A DNA stretch of 35,052 bases from Actinoallomurus sp. (GTDB lineage Bacteria; Actinomycetota; Actinomycetes; Streptosporangiales; Streptosporangiaceae), in assembly GCA_025964685.1 (NCBI GenBank), contig JAOPYG010000161.1, forward strand, positions 1 to 35,052, read 5' to 3'. This document shows positions 28,281-31,438 of this stretch, one piece after another. The position numbers and the translations under genes are program-made. The notes under the pieces are model-generated. The model was not told the DNA's origin, did no database searches, and was given only the letters and a program-made list of their open reading frames with translations. Every line of letters starts with the position of its first letter. Position 1 is the stretch's first letter.

Positions 28281-28859
28281 CTACTCCTGGTAGGAGTAGC
28301 GCTGTTCGAGCCAGGGGTCGGCGACGTTGTGATAGCCGCGTTCTTCCCAGAAGCCGCGCCGGTCGGCGACGAGATACTCGATGGCGCGGACCCACTTGAC
28401 GCTCTTCCAGGCGTACAGATGCGGCACCACCATGCGCACGGGAGCGCCGTGGTCGGCGGTGAGGCGTTCGCCGTCGCGGTGGGTGGCCAGGAGGGTCGTG
28501 TCGGCGAGGAAGTCCGACATCCGCAGGTTGGCGCTGTAGCCGTACTCCGCCCACACCATGACGTGGGTGGCCTCGCCGGCCGGGGGCACGAGCCCGGCCA
28601 GCGTCGTCGCGAGGATGCCCTCCCAGCGGACACCCGGGATGGTGAACTTCGTGACGCAGTGGAAGTCGGCGATCACCTGGTCGCGCGAGATCGCGTCCAC
28701 CTCGGCCCAGGTCCACCGGCACTCCTGCCCGGAGGCGGTCGCGCCGTGCACCCGAAGATCCCAGCGTTCGGGGCGGAACTTCGGCACCGGGCCGTAGTGG
28801 AGGACCGGCCAGGTGCGCGGGACGTGCTGCCCAGGCGGGAGATGCTCCTCAGGAGCCAT
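28281..28859 (-). CDS. Sulphite-oxidase-family molybdopterin oxidoreductase
   Basis: A 192-residue protein consisting of just the Mo-cofactor-binding SUOX fold. Cys68 in DFHCVTKFTIPGVRWEG is the predicted Mo ligand; YSANLRMSDFL, HGAPVRMVVPHLYAWKSVKWVRAIEYL and FWEERGYHN are typical of the small sulphite-oxidase-like group. There is no twin-arginine signal at the start (MAPEEHLPPGQ), so it is probably cytoplasmic. The substrate is unknown; no haem partner gene is adjacent. ATG 28859 with GGAG 8 nt upstream. It is divergent from the aro leader and separated from the sensor kinase by a 200-nt gap without clear genes. Confidence 0.9.
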   Translation of the reverse strand: MAPEEHLPPGQHVPRTWPVLHYGPVPKFRPERWDLRVHGATASGQECRWTWAEVDAISRDQVIADFHCVTKFTIPGVRWEGILATTLAGLVPPAGEATHVMVWAEYGYSANLRMSDFLADTTLLATHRDGERLTADHGAPVRMVVPHLYAWKSVKWVRAIEYLVADRRGFWEERGYHNVADPWLEQRYSYQE

Positions 28860-28970: not shown

Positions 28971-28976
28971 TAGTCT
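28971..28976 (+). promoter_or_regulatory. -10 box of the DAHP synthase leader transcript
   Basis: TAGTCT ends 7 nt before the GTG of the leader peptide at 28984, so the leader ORF should be translated from the first codon of a leaderless mRNA. No clear -35. Confidence 0.6.
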
Positions 28977-28983
28977 GTGCGAC

Positions 28984-29055
28984 GTGAGCAACGTCTTCTC
29001 CTTTACCTATGGCGAGCCCGGGACACGGGCGGCTGCCAGGAAGACGCTGCACTAA
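28984..29055 (+). CDS. Putative aromatic leader peptide (attenuator)
   Basis: A 23-codon ORF, GTG to TAA, reading MSNVFSFTYGEPG... and ending KTLH. Codons 5, 7 and 9 are Phe (TTC), Phe (TTT) and Tyr (TAT). TTT and TAT are rare in this GC-rich genome, which favours ribosome stalling when aromatic tRNAs are uncharged. It lies between a -10 box and a strong intrinsic terminator, directly ahead of a DAHP synthase gene, the layout of classical ribosome-mediated attenuators. It is unlikely to be a functional protein. Confidence 0.65.
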   Translation: MSNVFSFTYGEPGTRAAARKTLH

Positions 29056-29065
29056 AGGCAACCGC
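29016..29065 (+). promoter_or_regulatory. Alternative pairings in the DAHP synthase leader
   Basis: GCCCGGG (29016-29022) can pair with CCCGGGC (29077-29083) inside the terminator 5' arm, a possible antiterminator, or locally as GCCCG/CGGGC (29016-29020 with 29026-29030). A second stem pairs GCGGCTGCC (29029-29037) with GGCAACCGC (29057-29065) with one mismatch and places the leader stop codon in its loop. Confidence 0.5.
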
Positions 29066-29067
29066 TT

Positions 29068-29110
29068 GACGAATGCCCCGGGCCATCAGGCCCGGGGCAT
29101 TCGTCGTTTT
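29068..29110 (+). terminator. Strong intrinsic terminator ahead of the DAHP synthase gene
   Basis: A perfect 17-bp stem, GACGAATGCCCCGGGCC (29068-29084) with GGCCCGGGGCATTCGTC (29089-29105), 4-nt loop, followed by GTTTT. It sits between the leader ORF and the gene it would attenuate. Confidence 0.85.
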
Positions 29111-29125
29111 CAGACAAGGATCAGC

Positions 29126-30148
29126 ATGGTCGTCGTCATGGCCGCCGAGGCCTCAGAAGCAGATGTGCAAGCCGTCGTCACGCTCGTCGAGACGGCGGGC
29201 GGTGAGGCGTTCGTCAGCCGGGGCGTGAACCGCACGATCGTCGGCCTCGTCGGCGACGTGGAGCAGTTCGGCGCGCTGAACCTGCGCGGGATGGCCGGCG
29301 TCCGCGACGTCGTGCGGATCTCGGTCCCGTACAAGCTGGTCAGCCGCGAGAACCACCCGGATCGCTCGGTCGTACGCGTCGGCGGCGTGCCGATCGGCCC
29401 CGAGACGATGACGCTCATCGCCGGGCCGTGCGCGGTGGAGACGCCGGAGCAGACGCTGGAGGCCGCTCAGATGGCCCAGGCTGCCGGTGCGACGTTGCTG
29501 CGCGGCGGGGCGTTCAAGCCGCGCACCTCCCCGTACGCGTTCCAGGGCCTGGGCGAGAAGGGGCTGCGGATTCTCGCCGACGTACGGTCGGAGACCGGAA
29601 TGCCGATCGTCACGGAGGTCGTGGACGCCCACGACGTCGAGCTGGTGTCCTCGTACGCGGACATGCTGCAGGTCGGCACGCGCAACATGCAGAACTTCGC
29701 GCTGCTGCAGGCCGTCGGCGGCGCCGGCAAGCCGGTCATGCTGAAGCGCGGCTTCAACGCGACGATCGAGGAGTGGCTGATGGCGGCGGAGTACATCGCC
29801 CAGCGCGGCAACCTCGACATCGTGCTGTGCGAGCGCGGCATCCGGACCTTCGAGAAGGCCACGCGGAACACCCTGGACATCTCGGCCGTCCCGGTCGCCC
29901 AGGGGCTGTCGCACCTGCCGGTCATCATCGACCCGTCACACTCGGGCGGCCACCGCGAACTCGTCCTGCCCTTGACCCGCGCGGCCATCGCGGTCGGCGC
30001 CGACGGCGTGATCATCGACGTCCACCCGCATCCGGAACAGGCCCTGTGCGACGGCCCGCAGGCCCTGGTCAACGGCGACCTGAGGGAACTCGCCAAGACC
30101 GTACGCGAGCTGCCCCCACTGGTGAACCGCACCCTGACCCGCGCCTGA
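29126..30148 (+). CDS. aroF: 3-deoxy-7-phosphoheptulonate (DAHP) synthase, type I-beta
   Basis: First enzyme of the shikimate pathway: PEP + erythrose-4-phosphate to DAHP. It has 340 residues. An N-terminal ferredoxin-like (ACT-like) regulatory domain (~1-75, MVVVMAAEASEADVQAVVTLVE ... VVRISVPYKLVSRE) precedes the TIM barrel. The barrel has TLIAGPCAVET, LRGGAFKPRTSPYAFQGLG, QVGTRNMQNF, LKRGFNATIEEW, CERGIRTFE, PVIIDPSHSGGH and DVHPHPEQALCDGPQAL, carrying the metal ligands Cys, His, Glu and Asp. The N-terminal domain is the Tyr/Phe-sensing element in the Thermotoga enzyme. The ATG at 29126 follows AAGGA by 5 nt. Many actinomycetes use a type II enzyme instead. The leader suggests control by aromatic amino acids at the RNA level as well. 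Confidence 0.95.
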   Translation: MVVVMAAEASEADVQAVVTLVETAGGEAFVSRGVNRTIVGLVGDVEQFGALNLRGMAGVRDVVRISVPYKLVSRENHPDRSVVRVGGVPIGPETMTLIAGPCAVETPEQTLEAAQMAQAAGATLLRGGAFKPRTSPYAFQGLGEKGLRILADVRSETGMPIVTEVVDAHDVELVSSYADMLQVGTRNMQNFALLQAVGGAGKPVMLKRGFNATIEEWLMAAEYIAQRGNLDIVLCERGIRTFEKATRNTLDISAVPVAQGLSHLPVIIDPSHSGGHRELVLPLTRAAIAVGADGVIIDVHPHPEQALCDGPQALVNGDLRELAKTVRELPPLVNRTLTRA

Positions 30149-30526: not shown

Positions 30527-31438
30527 TTGACCAGTACGTCCATCACTTCCACCACGCCCGTGCGCCGGTTCGGTGGGTCGGTCGACATCGTTCTCGCCGC
30601 CGCCCTCTGGGGCACCACCGGCACCGTCCGCAGTTTCGTCCACGCGAGTCCGGTCGCGGTCGGGGCGGCCCGGCTCCTGATCGGCGGCGCCCTCCTCTTC
30701 GTGCTCGCGGTCCGCTCCGGCGGCCTGCGTCCCCTGCTCGCCGGAGGCCGCCGTACCCGGCTGGTCCTCCTCCTCGGCGCGGTCCTCGCCGCGGTCTACC
30801 AGGTGGCGTTCTTCAGCGCGGTCGCCCGTACGGGCGTGGCCACCGGCACGGTCGTCACGATCGGCAGCGGTCCGGTGTTCGCGGGGCTGCTCGCGGGGCT
30901 GCTGCGGATGGGCGCGCCGACCCGCCGCTGGCTGTTGTCCACGGTCGGCGCGGTGGCCGGTTGCGCCGCGCTGACCGCCGGCGGCCGGTCCGCGGGCGTC
31001 GAACCGGCCGGTATCGCGCTGGCTCTGCTGTCGGGCTTCGGCTACGCGGCGTACGCCACCGTGGCGTCGGCGCTGATCACCCGCGGCGAGGACGACCGGG
31101 CGGTCGTCGGTGTCCTGTTCGGCGGCGCCGGCCTCATGCTGTTCCCGGTCCTGCTGGCGTACGGGTCTGGCTGGCTGCTCACCGCCGAGGGCGCCCCGGC
31201 CGCGCTCTACCTCGGCCTCATCACCACCGGCGTGGGCTATGTCCTGTACGGCCGGGGCCTGCGTACGACGCCGGTCGCCACCGCGACGACGCTCACGCTG
31301 TCCGAGCCGGCGGTGGCCGCGGTCCTCGGCCTGTTCGTCCTGGGCGAGCACCTGGGCCCGATCGCCCTCGGCGGCCTGGGCCTGCTCGTCGTCAGCCTGC
31401 TCATTCTGGCCGTGCCCGCGCGCAGGCGACAGGTCTGA
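30527..31438 (+). CDS. EamA/DMT-family transporter (probable exporter)
   Basis: A 303-residue membrane protein with ten predicted spans in two EamA repeats (~20-150 and ~155-298). Repeat 1 starts VDIVLAAALWGTTGTVRSFV; repeat 2 begins EPAGIALALLSGFGYAAYATVASAL and ends EPAVAAVLGLFVLGEHLGPIALGGLGLLVVSLLIL, the usual DMT signature. Relatives export amino acids or metabolites; the substrate is unknown, but aromatic compounds are a fair guess from the neighbour (YddG-like role). Start TTG at 30527 with GGAG 8 nt upstream; the first residues (MTSTSITSTTP) are hydrophilic. It ends ahead of a shared terminator hairpin. Confidence 0.88.
   Translation: MTSTSITSTTPVRRFGGSVDIVLAAALWGTTGTVRSFVHASPVAVGAARLLIGGALLFVLAVRSGGLRPLLAGGRRTRLVLLLGAVLAAVYQVAFFSAVARTGVATGTVVTIGSGPVFAGLLAGLLRMGAPTRRWLLSTVGAVAGCAALTAGGRSAGVEPAGIALALLSGFGYAAYATVASALITRGEDDRAVVGVLFGGAGLMLFPVLLAYGSGWLLTAEGAPAALYLGLITTGVGYVLYGRGLRTTPVATATTLTLSEPAVAAVLGLFVLGEHLGPIALGGLGLLVVSLLILAVPARRRQV

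Follow-up and report, generated by a model that had tools for sequence, protein, structure and literature searches.

A putative ribosome-mediated attenuator with aromatic control codons upstream of a type I-beta DAHP synthase gene in Actinoallomurus, and related leaders in other actinomycetes

Described attenuators of aromatic amino acid genes

Neshat et al. (2014) is said to be the primary paper on the aroR-aroF attenuator of C. glutamicum. In this system, which corrects the statement in a preliminary description of the present locus that no DAHP synthase attenuator is known in actinobacteria, a Phe-Tyr-Phe leader peptide (aroR) precedes aroF, and the accessible parts of the sources describe aroF transcription as going up under phenylalanine limitation, with no effect of tyrosine availability (PMC11802643, PMC4046766, PMC11525245). 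The uORFC-13-1 motif of Acholeplasma is a predicted Phe-containing upstream ORF located before a terminator and aroF, characterized in the available portion of its source by at least one Phe codon, a ribosome-binding site and 24 representatives (PMC8632094). Attenuators of the trp type are reported in Actinobacteria by a source accessible in part, which in the same portion gives no conserved RNA structures ahead of the phenylalanine and tyrosine operons of the actinobacteria analysed, including Thermobifida fusca (PMC1262725). For S. lividans, the accessible part of another source describes eight leaders (among them trpL, leuL, thrL and alaL), several of them leaderless, with none for chorismate mutase or DAHP synthase (PMC8079986). 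In the literature searched, as far as its accessible text extends, DAHP synthase leader-peptide attenuation appears only for C. glutamicum and Acholeplasma, E. coli aroF being mentioned as a hypothesis, and we found no description of a multi-aromatic DAHP synthase leader family or of a chorismate mutase version in the best-ranked open-licence literature.

We analysed a 35,052-nt stretch of DNA from Actinoallomurus sp. (contig JAOPYG010000161.1, hereafter "the window") which, like C. glutamicum aroR-aroF, has an aromatic leader before a DAHP synthase gene and, like the Acholeplasma motif, has a Phe-bearing ORF, a terminator and a DAHP synthase gene in this order; Acholeplasma belongs to a different phylum from the window's host. 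Comparing the leaders by description, the window differs from C. glutamicum in that its enzyme is of type I-beta with a ferredoxin-like domain, and most relatives of the window, unlike C. glutamicum aroR, also have Trp codons. We take C. glutamicum aroF to belong to the aroFGH type. The tyrosine insensitivity of that system, as its partly accessible sources describe it, fits the position of the Tyr codon in the window (codon 9). Leader codons and competing hairpins are common to the window and the trp-type attenuators, but the latter use Trp, Leu, Thr, Ala, Ile or Met codons in actinobacteria and precede other genes. In E. coli ilvGMEDA and thrABC, too, one leader combines control codons of more than one amino acid, there branched-chain or Thr/Ile ones, whereas those of the window's family are aromatic. 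The kind of regulation proposed here is known; new are a broad actinomycete family, its multi-aromatic codon make-up and a Phe/Tyr version before chorismate mutase.

The leader, terminator and DAHP synthase gene in the window

The locus comprises the following features (positions in the window, with the basis of each assignment in brackets).

28971..28976, + strand: candidate -10 box TAGTCT of a leaderless promoter (sequence)
28984..29055, + strand: leader ORF VSNVFSFTYGEPGTRAAARKTLH, GTG start, 23 codons plus TAA at 29053-29055 (sequence)
28988..29050, + strand: protector (1:2) hairpin, made by the leader itself (RNAfold)
28996..29004, + strand: Phe codon 5, TTC (28996-28998), and Phe codon 7, TTT (29002-29004), predicted control codons (folding model)
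29008..29010, + strand: Tyr codon 9, TAT, here probably a weak control codon or a spectator (folding model)
29016..29022, + strand: antiterminator arm (region 2), GCCCGGG, predicted to pair with 29077-29083 in the stalled state (folding)
29068..29110, + strand: intrinsic terminator with a perfect 17-bp stem (29068-29084/29089-29105), loop ATCA and TTTT at 29107-29110 (sequence)
29116..29120, + strand: Shine-Dalgarno sequence AAGGA of the DAHP synthase gene (sequence)
29126..30148, + strand: type I-beta DAHP synthase (3-deoxy-7-phosphoheptulonate synthase), ATG at 29126 (NCBIfam, Pfam)

The -10 box, the GTG start, the 23-codon ORF with Phe5, Phe7 and Tyr9, the 17-bp terminator, the Shine-Dalgarno sequence and the ATG were all found where the preliminary description had placed them. 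It had also called two of the three control codons rare, which holds for the eight window genes taken as real, since TTT represents 2 of their 85 Phe codons and TAT 6 of their 51 Tyr codons. The alternative pairing that it saw invading the terminator is present as well: GCCCGGG at 29016-29022 can pair with 29077-29083 when the region is folded, and this helix covaries across the 56 sequences described below. In the RNAfold structure of the window leader, the protector hairpin ties up 29016-29020, paired with 29026-29030, and with it the greater part of the antiterminator arm. Taken alone, the antiterminator of the window is moderate, shuffled leaders equalling its number of paired bases in 23% of 60 trials, and it is the conservation across relatives that supports it.

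We scanned both strands of the window for short ORFs (12-40 codons) that contain a 9-residue stretch with three or more aromatic residues and end no more than 40 nt from a mismatch-free stem, 12 bp or longer, with three or more T among the 8 nt behind it. This locus was the only place recovered. The unique match, together with the conservation in relatives, rules out a chance assembly of parts. A terminator belonging to the upstream gene (28281-28859) was likewise rejected, this gene being transcribed in the opposite direction. In a whole-genome search, a covariance model of the family scored 116.9 bits at the window element; the second-best match (31.4 bits) was the window terminator on the opposite strand, and the best match elsewhere reached 28.6 bits. 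This search yielded 16 matches at E up to 10, 2 of them being the window element, and no other attenuator of the family was recognised among the three further places that were read (L100, L101 and L104). At L101, an ORF with Phe, Tyr and Phe is followed by a hairpin, with no co-directed gene, the next open frame lying on the opposite strand.

The DAHP synthase has 340 residues with an N-terminal ferredoxin-like regulatory domain, matches NCBIfam PRK08673 (471 bits, cut-off 335) and TIGR01361 (388 bits), and carries the Pfam domains DAHP_synth_1 and DAHP_snth_FXD; among named genomes, Actinoallomurus iriomotensis has the protein nearest to it (94% identical). The gene appears to stand alone behind the leader, since the upstream gene (Oxidored_molyb domain) is divergent and the next identified + strand gene, an EamA transporter at 30527, lies about 380 nt downstream. 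The genome also encodes a type II DAHP synthase on a separate contig and, at L031:1249-2268, a shortened DAHP-synthase-like domain fused to a C-terminal chorismate mutase domain; weak DAHP synthase matches scoring like this fusion occur in many relatives in the 80-genome enzyme search described below.

We regard it as very probable (about 0.88), from the sequence comparisons reported here, that transcription of the DAHP synthase gene is attenuated by the translating ribosome in the classical manner, through a leaderless leader ORF. We infer that the leader is translated, that transcription terminates at the hairpin in vivo and that the switch responds to starvation. RNA polymerase would start at the GTG (28984) or within a base or two of it, giving a leaderless transcript that is then translated. 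With ample charged tRNA-Phe, the ribosome would reach the TAA at 29055, the leader hairpin or the ribosome would sequester the arm at 29016-29022, the 17-bp terminator would form, and transcription would stop near 29110. With scarce charged tRNA-Phe, a ribosome stalled at Phe5 or Phe7 would open the leader hairpin and leave this arm free to capture the terminator's 5' half (29077-29083) while its 3' half is still to be transcribed, allowing read-through into the DAHP synthase gene.

Conservation and covariation of the element among relatives

To the 80 genomes of the enzyme search, the window's included, belonged 66 upstream regions of type I-beta matches that we read (the 65 places at or below E = 6e-149, plus a gene that is split into two parts), two of which are cut by contig ends (L037 with 28 nt and L062 with 82 nt upstream). 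The element was present in 56 of the 64 complete regions, window included. This alignment of type I-beta upstream regions is the check that the preliminary description had named, and it bears out the conservation of the leader, of its aromatic codons and of the terminator. No leader was found in the other eight complete regions (L035, L043, L048, L058, L060, L064, L065 and L066), three of which (L048, L058 and L065) are extra copies, the element standing before the better match of the same genome. The leader is kept in all 8 genomes of the window's genus examined (L001-L008, window included) and, elsewhere, is kept in type; the T run is short in many relatives. Leader ORFs were defined as the most aromatic short upstream ORF, with 14 starts placed by eye or by peptide similarity, so that part of their aromatic richness stems from the way they were chosen. 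The first 12 codons include Phe, Trp and Tyr together in 45 of the 56 DAHP synthase leaders (for example MRTAFWFWYGDGP and MQRNFWRFYGYRP), those without Trp in this stretch being the window's genus (8 genomes, window included), L011, L013 and L028.

Three further marks are independent of how the leader ORFs were chosen. A TANNNT motif lies 6-8 nt before the leader start in 56/56 cases (window included), against 78 of 2,800 random positions. A Shine-Dalgarno sequence precedes the leader start in 0/56 cases, and an SD-like sequence precedes the DAHP synthase gene in 54/56. Finally, in the leaders of 30 genomes TTT accounts for 32 of 58 Phe codons and TAT for 29 of 37 Tyr codons, with 0/180 and 0/131, respectively, in the 30 DAHP synthase genes that follow.

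In a second collection of 80 named loci, 27 had a same-strand covariance-model match of at least 45 bits, among them loci from Actinomadura, Spirillospora, Herbidospora, Microbispora, Planotetraspora, Sphaerisporangium, Nonomuraea, Streptomonospora and Nocardiopsis. Two Nocardioides loci had weaker forms without Trp (L131, 29.7 bits; L134, 15.4 bits), and no match to the model appeared at E up to 1 in the loci from Actinophytocola, Amycolatopsis, Kutzneria and Lentzea or in Actinomadura macrotermitis (L128). Type II DAHP synthase genes were considered as a second carrier, and none of 8 such loci had an ORF with 3 aromatic residues in 9.

Two loci stand apart. In L177, whose record is labelled as a proteobacterial bin, a type I-beta DAHP synthase is preceded by a strong hairpin and by an ORF that includes FYFGYYYWFF, about 215 nt ahead of the DAHP synthase match; this arrangement possibly arose independently. 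The leader peptide of L130 (named Glycomyces fuscus) is identical to that of Nocardiopsis sp. FR4 (L123), and the L130 assembly may be misnamed.

The peptides themselves bear on the improbable reading that the leader is an arrest peptide which, as TnaC, senses a small molecule and not tRNA charge. Within clades, the peptide's downstream half is conserved (RTVARQ-LR, for example), as such a peptide would lead one to expect, but in the folds obtained the corresponding 3' part of the leader is base-paired to its 5' part and includes the antiterminator arm, which can explain its conservation at the RNA level. Moreover, Phe, Trp and Tyr change place and number among relatives, even inside the window's genus (VFSFTYG, VSFFTYG and VFVFTYG), as is expected if the codons count and not the shape of the peptide.

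We then computed covariation on the 56-row alignment. In the terminator helix, 95.0% of cells are paired, 9 of 14 pairs show double changes, and the covariation score was matched by 0 of 500 shuffles. The antiterminator helix, formed by the leader and the 5' arm of the terminator, has 81.3% of cells paired and double changes in 6 of 10 pairs; its score was likewise matched by 0/500 shuffles, weaker measures being met more often (doubly changed pairs, 8/500; further pair types, 96/500). Shifting the partner by 1-3 columns made both helices drop sharply. A three-way change links the two helices at columns 72, 169 and 181, which read G-C-G in 33 rows and A-T-A in 12, a leader G going with a C-G pair in the terminator and a leader A with a T-A pair. 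In L057, L059 and L061, the terminator core is different and the leader arm is altered to match. The reading of the preliminary description as a ribosome-mediated attenuator is thereby supported, with leader, aromatic codons and terminator conserved and both helices covarying.

A plain 5' terminator yielding a short RNA or a fixed low level of transcription, with the ORF incidental, would account for the terminator being the most strongly conserved part and for the matches to the terminator part alone that are common class-wide. We hold this to be slightly less probable again than an arrest peptide, as the enrichment of rare codons, the fixed spacing between promoter and start and the covarying second helix lack an evident reason without translation. 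Least probable by a wide margin is a T-box or other tRNA- or ligand-binding leader working without translation: tyrosine genes of other species are under T-box control according to the accessible part of one source (PMC1262725), but no Rfam family, T-box families included, was found at gathering score in the window or in 8 loci with the element.

For the attenuator reading, we modelled stalled ribosomes by masking the leader over a footprint, defined as the nucleotides covered beyond the first base of the A-site codon. With a mask of +12, a stall is predicted to free the antiterminator at 106 of 108 Phe codons, 60 of 60 Trp codons and 58 of 84 Tyr codons, and the order of Phe and Trp above Tyr holds in the model across footprints from +9 to +17. 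In the window, a modelled stall at Phe5 or Phe7 leaves the antiterminator arm free at every footprint tried, whereas with a stall at Tyr9 the antiterminator is predicted at +9 and +11 and lost at +12, +13, +15 and +17. The proposal of the preliminary description that the aromatic codons act as sensors thus stands in the model for Phe5 and Phe7 at all footprints tried, but not for Tyr9 at footprints of at least 12 nt, with which this codon would lie too near the antiterminator arm to act well. Phe5 and Phe7 are therefore likely to be the well-placed sensors in the window, on the folding model, with Tyr9 borderline.

Other folding measures were more uneven. Leaders pair more bases of the terminator arm than the mean of their own shuffles in 53/56 cases. 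When no ribosome is present, the terminator arm is still paired to the leader in 38/56 folds, meaning that the default state without a ribosome is not uniformly terminating in the model; the protector hairpin does form in the window fold. The match of a leader arm to its own terminator arm exceeds the average obtained with arms from other species in 41/56, the window not being among these, in a ranking by duplex energy that is weakly discriminating. Compared with synonymous shuffles, leader stability has z = -2.16 in the window, a mean of -0.88 (n = 56) and z below -1 in 26/56. RNAalifold gave no consensus for the leader half over the 56 rows or a 46-row core, the alignment being too gappy, and a leader-half hairpin appeared within four subclades.

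Related leaders before other genes

A class-wide covariance-model search gave matches at E ≤ 1e-4 in 172 of 394 genomes, many of them to the terminator part alone, so that this number is not a count of attenuators. We read 62 fetched loci for the downstream gene, leaving out 30 loci returned by the class-wide search itself. The first 40 comprised 11 type I-beta DAHP synthases, 1 aroFGH-type DAHP synthase, 17 chorismate mutases, 9 threonyl-tRNA synthetases with a Thr leader and 2 loci without such a leader (L201 and L204); 22 further loci picked from the same matches all preceded chorismate mutase, giving a mutase set of 39.

The mutase set, with a Phe/Tyr leader and a terminator before chorismate mutase, consists of L185-L191, L205-L212, L197, L200 and L253-L274. 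A representative mutase passed Pfam CM_2, which was also found just downstream of the leader in G223 and G391; the mutase was called by eye from sequence in L197, L257, L267 and L274, and is in another frame in L260. All mutase loci are from one genus (g61), probably Streptomyces, except L197, L200 and L274. Phe and Tyr occur in 39/39 of these leaders and Trp among the first 12 codons in 3/39, in rows that come from three families in the sample and are thus not independent. TANNNT is found in 3/39 of them, and CATACT lies 5-10 nt before the start in 33/39 instead. The antiterminator forms in the model in 39/39, a figure with no shuffled control.

Two other kinds of leader were seen among these loci. 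At L221:121-186, the leader MQRYYWFTWPARSGPVGVNLR precedes, from position 262, an aroFGH-type DAHP synthase gene, the same control idea in the other DAHP synthase family. In L203 and L213-L220, a leader with Thr codons (MQRAAMTTTPESVPAR, for example) and a terminator precede the gene of threonyl-tRNA synthetase, an enzyme identified at one locus by TIGR00418 and at the others by eye. This kind of leader is known as thrL in S. lividans, as the accessible part of its source describes (PMC8079986).

The presence of Trp in 45/56 leaders of DAHP synthase versus 3/39 of chorismate mutase agrees with the metabolic branch. Type I-beta DAHP synthase feeds all three aromatic amino acids, and chorismate mutase feeds phenylalanine and tyrosine only. 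Most relatives of the window have Trp codons amid the Phe codons, so that in them the switch would respond when either amino acid is short. We think it probable, though with less assurance than for the window element itself, that these leaders form an actinomycete attenuator family that reads the charge of several aromatic tRNAs, with a codon make-up that follows the pathway branch, that lineages retune it by codon exchange, and that the window's genus has lost Trp.

The element offers a testable account of how many actinomycetes, known for antibiotics, may set the inflow of the shikimate pathway. The codons of the DAHP synthase and chorismate mutase leaders predict differing responses to tryptophan starvation. 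If the Phe/Trp/Tyr leaders work as predicted, they would be natural sensors of several aromatic tRNAs at once, would control DAHP synthase transcription without a repressor protein, and would provide defined targets to raise the supply of aromatic precursors.
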